This document shows, piece after piece, positions 5,090 through 17,528 of a stretch of 64,000 nt of DNA. The position numbers and the translations under genes are program-made. The first letter of the stretch is position 1, and each line of letters opens with the position of its first letter. This DNA is from Actinomycetota bacterium (GTDB taxonomy: Bacteria > Actinomycetota > Thermoleophilia > BMS3ABIN01): contig JACRMB010000005.1 of the NCBI GenBank assembly GCA_016235065.1, positions 73,524-137,523 on the forward strand, given 5' to 3'. The notes beneath the pieces were generated by a model. That model saw only the letters and a program-made list of their open reading frames with translations. It had not been told where the DNA came from and searched no databases.

Positions 5090-5416
5090 ATGGGTTGCTG
5101 CAGCCAGAGTTCAGGAAAGGACGGCGAGATGCTATCATCTGATAAGGCGATGAAAGATGCCTGCTGCCTGAACCTCGTTGTGCAGGGAAAACCATTGCTT
5201 TACAATGGCGCGGCCGACGTCCGTTCTCTTCTGGAATCCCGGGGCGAAAACACGATGTACGTGAACGTCCGGATCAATGACGAGGTGCTCGGGCACAGGG
5301 ATTTTGAAAGCATCACCCTGCAGGACGGCGACAGCATAGATTTTCTTTATTACATGGGCGGTGGAACTTGTTTAATCTTACAGACGAAGAAATCCTCAGG
5401 TATTCGCGGCATATAA
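5090..5416 (+). CDS. ThiS/MoaD-like sulfur-carrier protein with C-terminal tail after Gly-Gly
   Basis: The 108-residue product has a ubiquitin-like ThiS/MoaD domain (about residues 27-92) ending LQDGDSIDFLYYMGGG. Mature carriers end at Gly-Gly, which is adenylated and thiocarboxylated. Here a 16-residue tail, TCLILQTKKSSGIRGI, follows and would block activation until removed; a JAMM protease gene lies two genes downstream. There is also a Cys-rich N-terminal extension (MGCC and ACC). The ATG at 5090 follows GGAGG by 9 bases; a TTG at 5081 is in frame but too close to that site. The tail-coding sequence overlaps the start of the E1 gene by 49 bases. Confidence 0.85.
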   Translation: MGCCSQSSGKDGEMLSSDKAMKDACCLNLVVQGKPLLYNGAADVRSLLESRGENTMYVNVRINDEVLGHRDFESITLQDGDSIDFLYYMGGGTCLILQTKKSSGIRGI

Positions 5417-6186
5417 TCCTGTCTGAAGTCGGTGGAGCGGGACAGCAGAAACTGAAAGAGGCGAGCGTGCTGGTTGTCGGCGCGGGCGGCCTCGGTTCTC
5501 CGGTGCTGCTTTATCTGGCCGCCGCTGGAGTCGGAAGGATAGGCGTCATCGAGGACGACGTCGTAGATGTCACCAATCTGCAGCGCCAGGTGATCCACGC
5601 CACCGGAGATGTGGACCGGCCAAAGGTCCATAGCGCCTGCGATACCATGAAGCAGATCAATCCCCACATCGAGGTCGATGTCTATCACGAGCGGCTGACC
5701 AAGGACAACATCTTCCCGCTGCTCGAAAAATACGACATCGTCGTCGATGGAGTAGATAATTTCCCGACCAGGTACCTGATCAATGACGCCTGTGTCATGA
5801 AGAAGAAGAAGCTTGTCGAAGGCGGCATTCTCAGGTTCATGGGATTGATCATGAGCATCGATGCCGGCGAATCGGCCTGTTACCGTTGCGTATTTGAAGA
5901 GCCGCCGCCGCCGGGAACGGTGCCGAGCTGTGCCGAGGCGGGCATCCTTGGAGCGGTTGCCGGCGTGGTCGGAACGCTGCAGGCGACCGAAGTCCTGAAG
6001 ATCATAACCGGTGTCGGTGAGCCGCTATATAACCGGCTTTTGCAGTTCGATGCCGAGGAGCTGCGCTTTCACGAAGTCAAAGCCAGGCGTAATCCCAAGT
6101 GCCCGGTATGCGGTGAGAATCCATCCATCACCGAGCTGATCGAGTATGCCTACACCTGTGAGGTGCAGGCGCCTGGCAATTCCTGA
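5368..6186 (+). CDS. ThiF/MoeB-family E1-like adenylyltransferase
   Basis: The 272-residue enzyme adenylates the C-terminal glycine of a ubiquitin-like sulfur carrier with ATP. It has the ATP loop GAGGLGS (residues 38-44), zinc ligands C171/C174 and C245/C248, and a candidate catalytic Cys at 188 in PSCAEAGILG. No rhodanese domain is fused, so sulfur must come from another protein such as the adjacent TusA. The TTG at 5368 was chosen because MFNLTDEEILRYSRHI is the normal family N-terminus; it lies inside the carrier's tail codons, so translation is probably coupled. The stop overlaps the JAMM start by one base. Confidence 0.94.
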   Translation: MFNLTDEEILRYSRHIILSEVGGAGQQKLKEASVLVVGAGGLGSPVLLYLAAAGVGRIGVIEDDVVDVTNLQRQVIHATGDVDRPKVHSACDTMKQINPHIEVDVYHERLTKDNIFPLLEKYDIVVDGVDNFPTRYLINDACVMKKKKLVEGGILRFMGLIMSIDAGESACYRCVFEEPPPPGTVPSCAEAGILGAVAGVVGTLQATEVLKIITGVGEPLYNRLLQFDAEELRFHEVKARRNPKCPVCGENPSITELIEYAYTCEVQAPGNS

Positions 6187-6599: not shown

Positions 6600-7447
6600 T
6601 GCCGGGCGAGGATGGAAGCGGGATCTCCCCTAAGACCGTCAAGAACCTGCTGGAAAAGCTGGAGGCAGAGCTGCGGCCTCATGGCAGGCTGGTAGTGGCT
6701 TTTTCTGGCGGCGTGGATTCTTCAGTAGTGACTGCGGCGGCGGCAAGGGCTCTCGGAGCTGGTAATGTGATCGCTGTAACAGCCCTCTCGGAGACGCTTC
6801 CTGAAAGAGAGTTGCAGGAAGCGCGGAAGGTGGCGGCATCGCTGGGCATAGACCATCGTGTTATCAGGACCCGTGAGCTGGACACTGAGGAATTCAAGGC
6901 CAATCCCCCAGACCGTTGTTATCACTGCAAGACCGAGCTCTGGGCCAGGATCCGCAGGCTGGCTCAGGAAGCTGGCGTCGACAGTCTTGCTGATGGCGTG
7001 AATTTCAGCGATTCCCGTGATTTCAGGCCGGGGATAAAGGCAAGCGATGAGGCCGGGGTCATCCATCCTCTTGCCTCCGTGGGAGCGGGAAAGGCTCAAG
7101 TCCGCGCCCTGGCTAGATCGCTGGGATTGTCCAATTGGGACAAACCCGCCCAAGCCTGCCTGTCTTCGCGCTTCCCGTATGGCGACAGGCTGACTGAATC
7201 CGGTCTGAAGCGGGTCGAAGCCGCCGAGGATTTTTTGCACGGACTGGGTCTCAGACAGTATCGAGTCAGGGTTCATGGCGATGTCGCCCGCATCGAGATC
7301 ATCACTGACCAGATAAGCCTGATCGCCGATGACGATGTCCGGGAAAAAGTAGTGACCAGGCTCAAGGCTCTCGGTTACGGCTATGTCACACTCGACCTGG
7401 AGGGCTTCCGTTCGGGCAGTATGAACGAAAGCCTGTCTGATATCTGA
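6596..7447 (+). CDS. larE: LarE-type ATP-dependent sulfur transferase
   Basis: The 283-residue product has the PP-loop ATP pyrophosphatase motif SGGVDSS (residues 37-43), CYHCK (C108, C111) and QACLSSRFPYG (C188). C188 matches the sacrificial Cys of Lactobacillus LarE; together with CYHC it resembles the three-Cys LarE type reported to bind a [4Fe-4S] cluster. LarE normally sulfurates the pyridinium precursor of the nickel-pincer cofactor, but no larB or larC is in this window. Its place at the end of a sulfur-carrier operon suggests either a cofactor branch or another sulfurated product. The ATG at 6596 overlaps the JAMM stop and was preferred to upstream starts inside that gene. Confidence 0.9.
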   Translation: MMPGEDGSGISPKTVKNLLEKLEAELRPHGRLVVAFSGGVDSSVVTAAAARALGAGNVIAVTALSETLPERELQEARKVAASLGIDHRVIRTRELDTEEFKANPPDRCYHCKTELWARIRRLAQEAGVDSLADGVNFSDSRDFRPGIKASDEAGVIHPLASVGAGKAQVRALARSLGLSNWDKPAQACLSSRFPYGDRLTESGLKRVEAAEDFLHGLGLRQYRVRVHGDVARIEIITDQISLIADDDVREKVVTRLKALGYGYVTLDLEGFRSGSMNESLSDI

Positions 7448-7533
7448 TCAACCTCTCTCCCCTGTTCGTTTCTCCTTATAGCCTCCCAGCAGGTTTGCGA
7501 TTGTGAACAGTTGGAAATAATGGGTCAAATGCT

Positions 7534-7561
7534 GGTCTGGTCCCCAGGTCACATCCAGACC
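7534..7561 (+). other. inverted repeat in leader of the split-Soret-like gene
   Basis: GGTCTGG (7534-7540) and CCAGACC (7555-7561) form a perfect 7-bp stem around a 14-base loop, 26 bases before the ATG of the Tat-exported protein. It could be an operator or an RNA leader stem. No uridine run follows, so it is not a simple terminator for larE. Confidence 0.4.
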
Positions 7562-7587
7562 GAACCCTACACGAGAGGAGAAATGCC

Positions 7588-8430
7588 ATGTCAAGAGATG
7601 AGATCGAAGGCGGCGCTGCGTTATCAAGACGGGATCTTCTGAAGGGTGCCGGCAAGATTTCTGCTGTTGGCGGGCTGGCCCTGGTATCAGGCGCTGGTTT
7701 GGGCGTACTGGCCGGCTGTGAGGATTCGGGGACAAAGACGGTTACTACGAGTTCGGCTGAGAGCGCCAAGCTGCCGTGGCCGTATATGAAGCTCGATGCC
7801 GCGTCCATCAAGGCTTTGCAGGAGACCGCTCACGGAAACTGGTTCAAGGGCTTCTGCGCGTTTGCTACCCTTAGCGGGATCATGACCCAGTTGCGCGAGA
7901 AGGTCGGCTCGCCATGGACCGGTTATCCGATGGAAGCGATCATCTATGGACATGGCGGCACCGCCGGCTGGGGCGGCACCTGCGGTACTCTCATAGGCGC
8001 CGGCATGGCGGCATCCCTCGCGGCTGGCCCCAAGATCGGCGAAGAGATCATTAACGATGTGATGAAATGGTATACGGAAACCGAACTGCCGATCTACAAG
8101 CCTGACGCTCCCAAAGCGAGCATCACGGCCGTAAGCGTCAGCAATAGCCCCCTCTGCCATATCTCAGTCGGCAAGTGGATGAAGAAGGAAGGCGTCGGCT
8201 TTCTTAGCCCGCAGCAGATGGAAAGATGTGGAAGGCTTTCGGCAGACGTCGCTGCCAAGACCGCCGAATACCTGAACATGGAAGTCGACAAGCAGTTTGT
8301 CGCCGCCAACAAGTCACAGGTTACCCTGAACGGCATGCCGTCACAGAACAACTGTACCGAATGCCATGGAACCAGCATACCGGCGGTACCCAAGCCGGGC
8401 GGCGGTGAGAGCCTGATCGAGACCAGCTAA
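7588..8430 (+). CDS. Tat-exported split-Soret cytochrome c-like protein (C_GCAxxG_C_C family)
   Basis: The 280-residue product starts with a twin-arginine signal (LSRRDLLKGAG, residues 12-22) and a hydrophobic stretch ending in LAGC44, so it is exported folded and may also be lipid-anchored. The body matches split-Soret/C_GCAxxG_C_C proteins: Cys90, Cys132 in GWGGTCGTLIGAG, Cys190 and Cys214. One haem-c motif, CTECH (256-260), is near the C-terminus. Tat transport fits a protein that receives another metal centre before export. It follows the sulfur operon by 140 bases with its own GAGAGGAG ribosome site. An electron-transfer role outside the membrane is inferred; the partner is unknown. Confidence 0.82.
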   Translation: MSRDEIEGGAALSRRDLLKGAGKISAVGGLALVSGAGLGVLAGCEDSGTKTVTTSSAESAKLPWPYMKLDAASIKALQETAHGNWFKGFCAFATLSGIMTQLREKVGSPWTGYPMEAIIYGHGGTAGWGGTCGTLIGAGMAASLAAGPKIGEEIINDVMKWYTETELPIYKPDAPKASITAVSVSNSPLCHISVGKWMKKEGVGFLSPQQMERCGRLSADVAAKTAEYLNMEVDKQFVAANKSQVTLNGMPSQNNCTECHGTSIPAVPKPGGGESLIETS

Positions 8431-12873: not shown

Positions 12874-12934
12874 CGGCACAATCTGGCTGGCGGCCACTGG
12901 CTCCCCGAGATGGCAGCCAGTTACGAATAGCAGA

Positions 12935-13225
12935 CTAGCAGCTGCACGATCCCTGCTGCTGGCCCTGGATCACAAAACCTCGGGCGTCAGTGTAATCGAT
13001 GGTAGCGGATTTCAACTGCCGGTTTGCCTCCTTCTCAAGAAACACCTTGAGGCCGTCCAGTTCCAGGATCTCGTCGCCCCTGGCGGCGCTGTCGGCTATG
13101 TCCATAGCCAGTGACGGCCTTCAGCCGCCCGCTGACACAAAAAGCCTTACACCCGCATCAGGCTTTTCTTCCTTGGCCAGTATCTCCTTGAATTTTGTTA
13201 TGCAATTGATAGTAAGGTCCAGCAC
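12935..13225 (-). CDS. HesB/IscA-like selenoprotein with in-frame TGA (Sec35)
   Basis: Reading through one in-frame TGA (13121-13123) gives a 96-residue HesB-like protein: VLDLTINCITKF, then VRLFVSAGG-Sec-RPSLAMDIADSAARGDEI, ending in FVIQGQQQGSCSC. The Sec falls at residue 35, where E. coli IscA has Cys35, and C94-x-C96 matches the IscA C-terminal C-x-C pair. A family of HesB-like selenoproteins is known. A 6-bp hairpin begins 11 bases after the TGA, at bacterial SECIS distance. The GTG start has AAAGGAG 5 bases upstream. It is the third gene of the leftward arsR-acr3 operon. A Cys-to-stop pseudogene is the alternative. Confidence 0.87.
13094..13109 (-). promoter_or_regulatory. SECIS-like hairpin for the HesB-like selenoprotein
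   Basis: On the coding strand GGCTAT and ATAGCC form a perfect 6-bp stem closed by the loop GGAC. The loop begins 17 nt after the TGA codon, inside the 16-37 nt window known for bacterial SECIS elements, and starts with G as that consensus requires. The hairpin lies wholly within the coding sequence. Confidence 0.75.
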
Positions 13226-13286
13226 CGCGACTCCTTTACTCGTTGGTTATACAATCAATATCGGACGCAGGATGAAGCTAAGCGAA

Positions 13287-14336
13287 TCATCCTCCATCCA
13301 GCACATCCTGTTCACTGAACATGCGAGAAGCTGCTTTTCTGGCGAATAATACCAGCGCGAGCATGACAGGTACTTCGATCAGCGGTCCGATGACAGCCGC
13401 AAATGCCTGGCCTGAATCCAGTCCGAAGACCGCGATTGCGACCGCTATTGCCAGTTCGAAATTATTGGAAGCAGCCGTGAAACCGATGGTTGCGCTCCTG
13501 GGATAATCGGCGCCGATCCTCTTCCCCATCCAGAAACTCAACACAAACATTAGCACGAAATATATCAGCAGCGGAACCGCGATCCGCACGACATCCAGCG
13601 GCAGCTCGACGATATATTGCCCCTTGAGTGAGAACATGACAAAGATAGTGAACAGTAGGGCTATCAGTGTCAGGGGGCTTATCCTGGGGATAAACCGGCG
13701 CTCGTACCAGTCCCTCCCCTTGAGGCGCATCAGGGAAATACGGGTCAGAATGCCCGCAAGGAAGGGTATTCCCAGGTAGATGAAGACGCTTTTGGCTATC
13801 TGGCCGATGGTGACATCCACTACGACGCTTTCAAGCCCGAGCCAATCCGGGATCACCGTCAGGAACATGTACGCGTAGACTGAGTAAAAGAGGACCTGGA
13901 ATACCGAATTGAATGCCACCAGGCCGGCGGCATATTCGCTGTCCCCCCGTGCCAGCTCATTCCAGACGATGACCATGGCTATGCAGCGGGCGAGGCCGAT
14001 CAGGATGAGGCCCTGCATGTACTCAGGCTTGTCTGCGAGCAGCAAGACTGCGAGGACGAACATGAGAATCGGGCCGATAATCCAGTTCTGCGCGAGTGAC
14101 AGGCCAAGCACCCGGTAATCACGAAAGACTTGGCCCAGCTTCTCATACCGTACTTTCGCCAGTGGCGGATACATCATGACGATGAGGCCGATTGCGATCG
14201 GAATGGAAGTAGTGCCCCAGGAGAGCCTGGTGATCGCGTCTGAGATCTCAGGATAGTAGTAACCGGTGGCGACAGCCGCAGCCATGGCCAGGAATATCCA
14301 GAGGGTAAGGTAGCGGTCGAGAAAAGACAGTCTCAT
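13287..14336 (-). CDS. acr3: ACR3-family arsenite efflux permease
   Basis: The 349-residue protein has about ten membrane segments and the ACR3 signature [19 protein letters not shown], with the conserved Cys needed for arsenite export, plus [17 protein letters not shown] near the C-terminus. It pumps As(III) out of the cell by proton exchange. The ATG at 14336 follows GGGAG by a normal spacing and sits 26 bases after arsR, so the two form an operon behind the promoter at 14814-14842. The HesB-like selenoprotein gene follows 61 bases downstream. Confidence 0.95.
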
Positions 14337-14362: not shown

Positions 14363-14797
14363 CTAGCCGCAGTTGCCGGTCGTTTTTGCCCTCAGGGCAA
14401 CCAGGCGCCGTCGGTCTGCCCGTATGGTCGCATCGTCGTCAAGCCAGCCTAGCATCAGCGCCAGCAACGGAAGCGCATAGGCGTTGGTTTTCCTGTCTGT
14501 CAACGAATAATATGCCCAGCGTCCGTCACGCCTGTCTTTGACCAGGCCGGCCTTTTTCAGCATTGAGAGGTGACCTGATACGGTTGACTGGCTGAATCCG
14601 AGTATTTCGAGCAGCTCGCATACGCACAGCTCCTGACCCTCCAGGAGCTTCAGTATCCGTGCCCGTACCGGATCGGCCGCAGCTTTTAGAACGGATTCGT
14701 AATCAGAAATGGTTATGGCTGAAAACCTTCTATTAAAGCGGTTTATAGGAACATATATCGGTGCACACCGATATAATATTCTACGAAAAACGCACAT
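14363..14797 (-). CDS. arsR: ArsR-family arsenic-responsive repressor
   Basis: The winged-helix core runs from [25 protein letters not shown], with the metalloid site ELCVCELLE (two Cys in the recognition-helix region, as in E. coli ArsR) and [16 protein letters not shown] as recognition helix. As(III) binding should release DNA and switch on acr3. The start is uncertain: the frame is open to a TTG at 14842, but that TTG is the promoter -35 box; the ATG at 14797 is the first in-frame start after the predicted transcription start, giving 144 residues with about 30 unusual N-terminal ones. No canonical start lies between the second operator and the core domain. Confidence 0.9.
14754..14775 (-). 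promoter_or_regulatory. ArsR operator 2 (downstream palindrome)
   Basis: A near-perfect palindrome centred on atatcggtgcacaccgatat with 10-bp arms and a 2-base centre. It lies about 40 bases after operator 1 (centre to centre), that is about four helical turns, so two ArsR dimers could bind the same DNA face. Confidence 0.68.
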
Positions 14798-14815
14798 ATC
14801 GTTAAGCGCCGATAT
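14796..14815 (-). promoter_or_regulatory. ArsR operator 1 (overlaps -10 box)
   Basis: A 20-bp imperfect palindrome with 6-bp arms ATATCG and CGATAT around an 8-base centre. It overlaps the -10 box and has the same arms and length as operator 2 next to it. Confidence 0.65.
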
Positions 14816-14842
14816 ATTACATCTGTCCTGGATGTGAGTCAA
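14814..14842 (-). promoter_or_regulatory. promoter of arsR-acr3 operon
   Basis: On the minus strand TTGACT (14842-14837) and TAATAT (14819-14814) are 17 bases apart, a near-consensus housekeeping promoter. The -10 box overlaps the first operator palindrome, so bound ArsR would block polymerase. Confidence 0.75.
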
Positions 14843-15025
14843 ATATAAGCGTGACTTATATTCAGAACCCCCACTCTATTCGTGACGATAATCAAACTAT
14901 TTATCTCCATACCGGGTAAATACTCTTTGTGCCCTGCTCCATGTTCTGCTGTTTACGAGAATACATGCCAGGATGGACGGGGACGCCAGCGCATTCAAAG
15001 TCATAATGAATGAAGGGTGGATACC

Positions 15026-15673
15026 ATGAGCGAAGAGGTTTTCACGGAATTCTTTTCCGAAGTAAGACCCATCAGGATGCGTGAGCCGCTGGCTGCATTG
15101 CTTGGGGCGTTTCAGGGTGATAGCGATACCCTGTCGTTCAACTTCTCTGATGTTGTGAAGTCAGCGGGTCACGCCTGCCCTACGGTCTCAGGAGCGTACC
15201 TGGGTTGTCAGCTGGCCCTGGAGTCTCTTTTTCCAGACGAGACGCCAGTTCGCGGCGGCCTGTCCATCACGGTTTTTGGCGAAACTGACGAAGGCGGCCT
15301 GGGCGTCATGGCCCAGGTATTCTCATATATTACCGGCGCAGCGCCAGAGACTGGCTTCAAGGGTCTCGGTGGCAGATTTGCCAGGAAGGGCCTGCTAAGA
15401 TTTGAAAAGGAAGAAACAGGCTGTGAGGAGCCATGCTTCCGGTTTGAACGTATTGATACAGGCGCAGCCGTGACTGTCAGGTTCTATCCATGGCTCATCC
15501 CCTTTCCTGAGGAGTCAGGCAAGCGTCTGGCAGCTCTGATGGGTCCTGTCATCGCGGGCGAGGCCGGCGACGATGACCGGGACGAGTTCATGAATCTATG
15601 GCGGGAAAAAATCAGGAGCATGGTCGTCGATCGGAAGGAAATCGGGAATTGGCTCAAGGTAGAGCCAGCCTGA
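15026..15673 (+). CDS. FmdE-domain protein
   Basis: The product of about 215 residues has the FmdE core signature DVVKSAGHACPTVSGAYLGCQLALE (about residues 40-65), whose His and Cys bind metal in this family, and ends without the zinc ribbon seen in methanogen FmdE. FmdE-like proteins in anaerobes often sit near molybdopterin or metal-transport genes, and the function of most is unknown. The ATG at 15026 follows AAGGGTGG by 5 bases and is preferred to GTG 15017. The end overlaps the YwiC-like gene, so the two are translationally coupled. Confidence 0.8.
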   Translation: MSEEVFTEFFSEVRPIRMREPLAALLGAFQGDSDTLSFNFSDVVKSAGHACPTVSGAYLGCQLALESLFPDETPVRGGLSITVFGETDEGGLGVMAQVFSYITGAAPETGFKGLGGRFARKGLLRFEKEETGCEEPCFRFERIDTGAAVTVRFYPWLIPFPEESGKRLAALMGPVIAGEAGDDDRDEFMNLWREKIRSMVVDRKEIGNWLKVEPA

Positions 15674-17022: not shown

Positions 17023-17271
17023 TCACTTTCCTTTCCTGACCCAGAAGGTGAATACCTCTCCGTCTTCGGTTGCGCCAAGGAATTCATGGCCTGCCCTGTT
17101 GGCCCACGCGGGCATGTCGCCCTTCGAACCCGGATCGGTTCCGACGATCTCGAGTACCTGGCCGACTTCCAGCGCGTCCATGGCCTTCTTGGCCTTGACC
17201 ACCGGCATCGGGCAACACAAGCCCTTGACGTCGAGGACTGAATCAGCCTTTACATCGATTCCATCACCCAT
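17023..17271 (-). CDS. TusA-family sulfur-carrier protein, second copy
   Basis: The 82-residue product has VLDVKGLCCPMPVVKAKKAM, with the CPxP sulfur-carrying Cys preceded by a second Cys. The ATG at 17271 sits 6 bases after AAGGAGGA, an excellent ribosome site, so the 35-residue upstream extension of the frame is rejected. Pairing with a DsrE2-type gene is typical of TusA-DsrE sulfur relays in sulfate reducers and sulfur oxidisers. It differs clearly from the TusA at 4845 (CCPMP against KCPMP), suggesting a separate job. Confidence 0.93.
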   Translation of the reverse strand: MGDGIDVKADSVLDVKGLCCPMPVVKAKKAMDALEVGQVLEIVGTDPGSKGDMPAWANRAGHEFLGATEDGEVFTFWVRKGK

Positions 17272-17528
17272 TTGCTCCTCCTTGTAAATTAGATTGCTCT
17301 TTTTCGACGATGGAACCCGTATCCGGGATTCAGATTCAGTCCCATCGCCCTGTCTAAAAAACATAGTGTATCCCACTCGCGGAATAATTTCACAAACCTG
17401 ATCTCTCAGGGATTATTTCTCACAAAATAAAGAGGAATGGCATACAGGTAGTCAGCAGGCGTTTCGGTGAATTAATCCAGCTTATTCGTCAGACAGCCGA
17501 TGATGGCTATCTGAAATCTCTCACAGGC

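Follow-up and report, generated by a model that had tools for sequence, protein, structure and literature searches.

The window, by which we mean the whole 64,000-nucleotide stretch of Actinomycetota DNA analysed here, carries a small HesB/IscA-type gene (hesB) directly behind the arsenic-resistance genes arsR and acr3. On comparative sequence grounds, the UGA at residue 35 of this gene is almost certainly read as selenocysteine (Sec) by way of an adjacent hairpin and the genome's own SelA, SelB, tRNA-Sec, and SelD, and hesB very probably belongs to a separate HesB-like subfamily that is kept in arsenic-resistance clusters. We assign a probability of roughly 45% to the complete reading, in which hesB encodes a true selenoprotein that has the A-type carrier fold, belongs to a subfamily kept with ars genes, and would serve as a carrier of As(III); the As(III) step is one that we infer. 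A more far-reaching version seems to us slightly less probable: a selenium-based arsenic carrier in an IscA-fold subfamily spread over Nitrospirota and Actinobacteria, in which Sec, or Cys-Cys after Sec loss, would bind As(III) and pass it to an arsenite pump, with selenium supply directly setting arsenic tolerance.

HesB-like selenoproteins have been listed for about twenty years without a known task, as far as the accessible portions of two reports go (PMC1794560, PMC11097638), the latter describing the function of the Methanococcus HesB-like selenoprotein as not clear. The ars-operon subfamily provides a first lead on that task and makes the question testable. If the reading as an As(III) carrier is true, selenium and arsenic chemistry are joined inside one resistance operon.

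The hesB frame and probable selenocysteine insertion

The features of the gene are as follows.

12935..13225, minus strand: HesB/IscA-type selenoprotein gene (hesB), very probably; GTG start, 96 residues with Sec at 35, TAG stop; relatives have the same TGA
13121..13123, minus strand: in-frame TGA, almost certainly read as selenocysteine, residue 35; hairpin equidistant from the TGA in 30/30 Sec-form sequences
13094..13109, minus strand: SECIS-type hairpin, 6-bp stem GGCUAU/AUAGCC, loop GGAC; full stem in 30/30, paired changes in three
13231..13237, minus strand: ribosome-binding site AAAGGAG, read from the sequence
12938..12946, minus strand: C-terminal Cys-Ser-Cys, residues 94-96, probable further metal(loid) ligands; at least two Cys in the last 12 residues in 34/35 rows

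The gene runs on the minus strand from GTG at 13225 to TAG at 12937-12935, and the TGA at 13123-13121 is the sole interruption of its 96-residue frame. Around Sec the protein reads VSAGG-U-RPSLAMDI, and it ends in GSCSC. An earlier note on this DNA had described the frame, the GTG start, the AAAGGAG, the single TGA, and the C-x-C end without stating the strand, and all of these were borne out on the minus strand. The opposite reading, on the plus strand from 13020 to 13226, is an open frame that lacks the signs of a gene and was rejected.

A protein search of 60 relatives gave matches at E ≤ 1e-3 in 25. The four best of these (the window's own genome, G005 from the same genus, and G010 and G012 from the same family) have one TGA each in the same place, and the remaining rows have none. 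Identity to the window protein among the four family genes is 53-90%, and the TGA is retained across 52-90% protein identity. A search of named genomes produced 11 relatives, including Nitrospirota and Nitrospinota assemblies. Of 395 Nitrospirota genomes, 28 contained a match at E ≤ 1e-18, and the TGA form is present in 26 of the 28. Within the class, 211 of 399 genomes contained a match at E ≤ 1e-5; among the matches listed, the TGA occurs only in the four family members, and the rows without it are weaker Cys-type IscA relatives. The earlier note had raised the prospect of relatives that end at the TGA with no homology beyond it. These genes instead read through it, and HesB homology extends over both sides.

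From these searches we assembled a comparison set of 35 rows at 33 loci, made up of 30 Nitrospirota rows, the Nitrospinota locus L053, and the four Actinobacteria. Thirty rows are Sec forms (26 Nitrospirota genomes and the four Actinobacteria, including the window) and 5 are Cys-Cys forms, and all 35 were retained for counts. Every row (35/35) has Sec or Cys-Cys. After the TGA, dN/dS is 0.045-0.19 in 8/8 Sec-form gene pairs and, as judged from these substitution rates, the frame behind the TGA is under purifying selection. The four Actinobacteria form a clade in the tree (support 89/90), which was used only for this clade and for near-copies, as 19 of its 42 inner branches are open and long branches are flagged. 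Another HesB relative with an in-frame TGA, at L180 (G495:C31:36569-36892, minus strand), has a different motif, GGG-U-GCGPS, and no ars gene within 1.5 kb.

Bacterial SECIS loops lie 16-37 nt past the UGA, the range quoted in the earlier note, and have a G at the loop start. In the window the hairpin described by the earlier note was recovered at 13109-13094, its loop starting with GG 17 nt after the TGA. Folded as a single sequence it is unremarkable (z = -1.17), so that only comparison across 30 sequences raises it above chance, and an Rfam scan of 12900-13300 found no SECIS family, its lone row being a chance snoRNA match below threshold. In that comparison, the 6-bp stem with its loop at the same 17-nt distance is present in 30/30 Sec-form rows. 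Synonymous recoding that kept the residues and drew on the pooled codon usage of these genes restored the full stem in 9-15% of draws per gene (about 11% overall), giving a mean of 3.3/30 and a maximum of 11 in 2000 rounds versus the 30/30 observed, and hairpin energy was on average 1.46 standard deviations lower than under recoding. L152, L153, and L154 have GACTAT/ATAGTC instead of GGCTAT/ATAGCC, with both sides of one pair changed together and both residues altered (Ala to Thr, Ala to Val); because L152 and L153 are near-copies, these paired changes represent one or two events.

The hairpin extends partly to the Cys-Cys forms. Among the ars-linked Cys-Cys rows, 6 (L157), 5 (L134), and 5 (L053) of the six stem pairs are kept, and the other two rows keep 1 and 4; among generic Cys-Cys genes that could be placed, 0/13 have all six. 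The Cys-Cys forms with a leftover hairpin look like former Sec forms that turned Cys-Cys. A remnant SECIS in the Cys form of a HesB-like gene has been reported before, according to the accessible part of that paper (PMC1794560).

The window's genome contains all four of the genes that the earlier note had named for checking, selA, selB, selC, and selD. The tRNA-Sec (anticodon TCA) scores 67.8 bits, over the gathering score, and is adjoined by SelA (578 bits) and SelB (359 bits). SelD lies at G000:C3:16902-17834 and itself has one in-frame TGA, which points to at least one further selenoprotein made by this genome. Across Nitrospirota, selB was found over the cut-off in 22/26 Sec-form genomes versus 7/20 without a hesB gene (Fisher p = 8e-4, only a guide since the genomes are related), and in 3/3 genomes with the Cys-Cys form only. 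In the four Sec-form genomes that fall short, the selB hit is partial in G475, and no hit reaches E ≤ 1e-60 in G402, which has a short fragment, or in G791 and G443. The Sec-form genomes without an adequate selB, three or four in number, are probably incomplete assemblies.

Family assignment and fold

The window protein matches TIGR00049 over residues 3-96, on both sides of the TGA (E = 1.4e-12, under the curated cut-off), and NF038090 (IscA_HesB_Se) over residues 1-95 (E = 6.5e-11, 42.4 bits versus a cut-off of 85). TIGR01911 gave no match to it in the own-genome search or the profile scan, and a Pfam search at E ≤ 0.001 found no family, PF06953 (ArsD) included. Profiles were tested on 11 proteins, namely the window protein, eight Sec forms, L053, and a Niallia protein, and all 11 score under the curated cut-offs of TIGR00049, TIGR01911, and NF038090. 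The 10 others reach 30.1-49.8 bits with NF038090, all below 85, and with TIGR01911 (cut-off 66.35 bits) at best 43.8 bits, for the Niallia Cys form. Annotation would probably miss this gene class twice, through the internal stop and through the profile cut-offs.

An AlphaFold2 model built on 13 aligned sequences has an A-type carrier fold with a pLDDT of 87.5. The Sec loop block is at about 74 and the last four residues are below 50, so the distance from Sec to the C-terminal Cys is unreadable from the model. Foldseek returned E. coli IscA (1r94) and SufA (2d2a) as the best solved structures (E about 1e-5, TM 0.74-0.76), and a profile match to HI1723 has E = 2.7e-15. We are confident, from modelling, in the prediction that the window protein has the fold of the A-type carriers IscA, SufA, and ErpA.

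A-type carriers have three Cys ligands, one in a loop and the others in a C-x-C at the end. The earlier note's placement of Sec at the IscA Cys35 position is right give or take one residue: Sec aligns with the loop Cys in HMMER and one residue after it in MAFFT, a discrepancy that arises from the Cys-Cys form having one residue more. The Sec motif is GGU[GSR]PS, with U-[GSR]-P-S in 30/30 Sec-form rows and U-R-P-S in the window protein; CxxU and UxxC are absent from the Sec subfamily. At least two Cys lie within the last 12 residues in 34/35 rows, the exception being L042 with a single Cys, and the endings vary from C-S-C in the window protein to CC or CCG in many members.

HesB-like selenoproteins are a listed family, TIGR01911, with the Sec motif UxGP in the accessible part of the source (PMC13188914). 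Like that family, the window protein is small, is related to IscA/HesB, has Sec close to the first conserved Cys, and comes from a group with both Sec and Cys forms; it differs in giving no match to the TIGR01911 profile, in having GGU[GSR]P rather than UxGP, and in its link to ars genes. Its similarity to NF038090 is full-length, yet the score is half the cut-off.

Arsenic genes around hesB

Two arsenic-resistance genes precede hesB in the window.

13287..14336, minus strand: acr3, ACR3 family arsenite efflux transporter (TIGR00832, 469 bits versus a cut-off of 282.8)
14363..14842, minus strand: arsR, ArsR/SmtB regulator with an ELCVC motif, true start possibly internal (NF033788, 97.4 bits versus a cut-off of 55)

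The end of acr3 is 61 nt from the start of hesB. We take the ELCVC motif to be the As(III) site of ArsR; it is found in 8/10 neighbouring ArsR proteins across the loci. Promoter and terminator scans of the window stayed near shuffle level, and we infer a single arsR-acr3-hesB transcript only from strand and spacing.

The link to arsenic genes suspected by the earlier note is conserved. A core ars gene lies within 2 kb on the same strand at 25/33 loci (22/30 Sec-bearing loci), counts that are not independent because several loci are closely related, L144/L145, L147/L150, and L152/L153 among them. Within 1.5 kb, the figure is 23/33 loci versus 0/71 control HesB/IscA places, most of which were searched over 1.5 kb on each side. 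Core ars here means ArsC, Acr3, ArsD, and ArsA by tblastn at E ≤ 1e-4, with reference sequences for ArsC, ArsD, and ArsA taken from the test loci themselves. The controls were 59 other HesB/IscA loci and 23 Nitrospirota paralogues, 82 names that reduce to 71 distinct places after removal of 11 repeats.

The order arsR-acr3-hesB occurs in the window and at L040, and acr3-hesB at L134. At L158, L055, and L053, arsD and arsA directly flank hesB, one on each side, and arsD also adjoins it in L133, L156, and L157. The commonest core ars neighbour is ArsC of the low-molecular-weight phosphatase type, beside hesB at L139, L144-L148, L150, L151, and others, and not found near hesB at the window, L040, L158, and L055. 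Two Acr3 types are present among the loci, 38% and 71% identical to that of the window. No core ars gene was seen within 2 kb at L137, L140, L141, L143, L149, and L154, or at L041 and L042, which have an ArsR-type gene without the CVC motif. At L041 (G012; 5308-5748 and 6681-7943), this ArsR-type gene, a GcvH-like lipoyl protein, and an FAD disulfide reductase flank the Sec form of hesB instead of acr3. Ten of the 33 loci have a sufC or sufB gene no more than 3 kb downstream on the same strand, and eight of these ten have ars genes too; one such pair was checked against Pfam.

Two further genes of the window lie nearby. A weakly FmdE-like protein (15017-15673, plus strand; E = 4.7e-4, under the Pfam cut-off) is divergent from arsR, and an FmdE-like gene also adjoins arsR in G005. 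The gene at 17023-17376 (minus strand) is presumably a TusA-type sulfur carrier, judged by eye from its CCPMP motif.

In an unrelated lineage, a Niallia plasmid has a Cys-form IscA-like gene directly after arsA; the plasmid search gave nine records, all below 60% identity. The ars1 operon of Bacillus sp. CDB3 contains a HesB-like gene, orf7 (PMC4562236, PMC5481582), which resembles hesB in lying inside an ars operon and differs in phylum. It was compared by description only, and the accessible parts of those papers do not mention Sec. Together, the Niallia plasmid and orf7 show that recruitment of IscA relatives into ars operons has also taken place in Bacillota. Both HesB-like selenoproteins and the presence of a HesB-like gene within an ars operon of Bacillus are already known. 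For an ars-linked HesB selenoprotein, here the Sec subfamily with GGU[GSR]PS, no description was found in the one open-access library searched; most subscription journals lay outside it, and this is not proof of novelty.

A putative As(III) carrier and its alternatives

Of the tasks the earlier note had offered (arsenic, Fe-S, or thiol), arsenic is the one that the surrounding genes fit best, followed by Fe-S. We propose that the selenolate (in sister genes, a Cys-Cys pair in place of Sec) would bind As(III) together with the C-terminal cysteines, and that the bound As(III) would be held or passed to the efflux system, Acr3 in the window and ArsA in arsD-hesB-arsA clusters. The hesB product would then be a functional counterpart of ArsD without being related to it. 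ArsD uses Cys pairs to bind As(III), and the proposed likeness lies in small size, richness in cysteine, a gene beside arsA, and the handling of As(III); the two belong to separate fold families (PF06953 and IscA-like), and homology is not claimed. The strongest hint for an As(III) carrier is the placement between arsD and arsA, combined with the Sec/Cys-Cys swap and the end cysteines kept in nearly all rows. What speaks most strongly against it is that the neighbouring suf genes and the fold would suit a role in repairing Fe-S clusters during arsenic stress.

The A-type carrier fold is known for Fe-S and iron binding. An arsenic-stress Fe-S carrier would rebuild or deliver Fe-S clusters once the usual carriers have had their thiols poisoned by As(III), with Sec or Cys-Cys keeping it active in the presence of As(III). 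We consider this unlikely but the most serious of the alternatives: the fold and the nearest solved structures are those of IscA, SufA, and HI1723, and suf genes follow hesB at nearly a third of the loci, yet no suf gene is near hesB at the arsD-hesB-arsA loci, and many members end in CC or CCG rather than preserving the C-terminal C-x-C. HesB and SUF transcripts of a marine bacterium, in the accessible part of one report, are up under the organoarsenical dimethylarsenate (PMC6426599), which fits the same alternative. It is improbable that hesB encodes a redox partner, whose selenol would not bind arsenic but reduce a disulfide, such as one on ArsC or on thiols associated with Acr3; Sec is usually a redox residue in known families, by the accessible portion of a review of them (PMC13188914), and ArsC is the commonest core ars neighbour, but Sec sits in GGU[GSR]PS rather than in CxxU or UxxC, and at the window, L040, L158, and L055 no arsC was found near the gene.

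Slightly less probable again is that hesB is a generic A-type carrier near ars genes by chance, the linkage having arisen because a few loci descend from a common ancestor or because islands moved horizontally. Several loci are indeed close relatives (such as the three pairs above), and 8/33 are without core ars genes. Against this, the ars partners vary by locus (arsR-acr3, arsD/arsA, arsC), the Acr3 proteins are of two types, and none of the control places has a core ars gene. That the TGA is an ordinary stop codon, leaving a 34-residue peptide or a decaying pseudogene, is highly improbable; read-through is predicted here from sequence, but the TGA persists in more than one phylum, the frame that follows it is open and under selection, the hairpin is kept, and the Sec machinery is complete.

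The Cys-Cys sisters with a leftover hairpin amount to a natural experiment on the replacement of one Sec. At two loci, L157 (G402; 5223-5504 and 7197-7487, reverse-complement coordinates) and L133 (G442), Sec and Cys-Cys forms share one ars cluster, and these co-resident forms are possibly a selenium-dependent pair.
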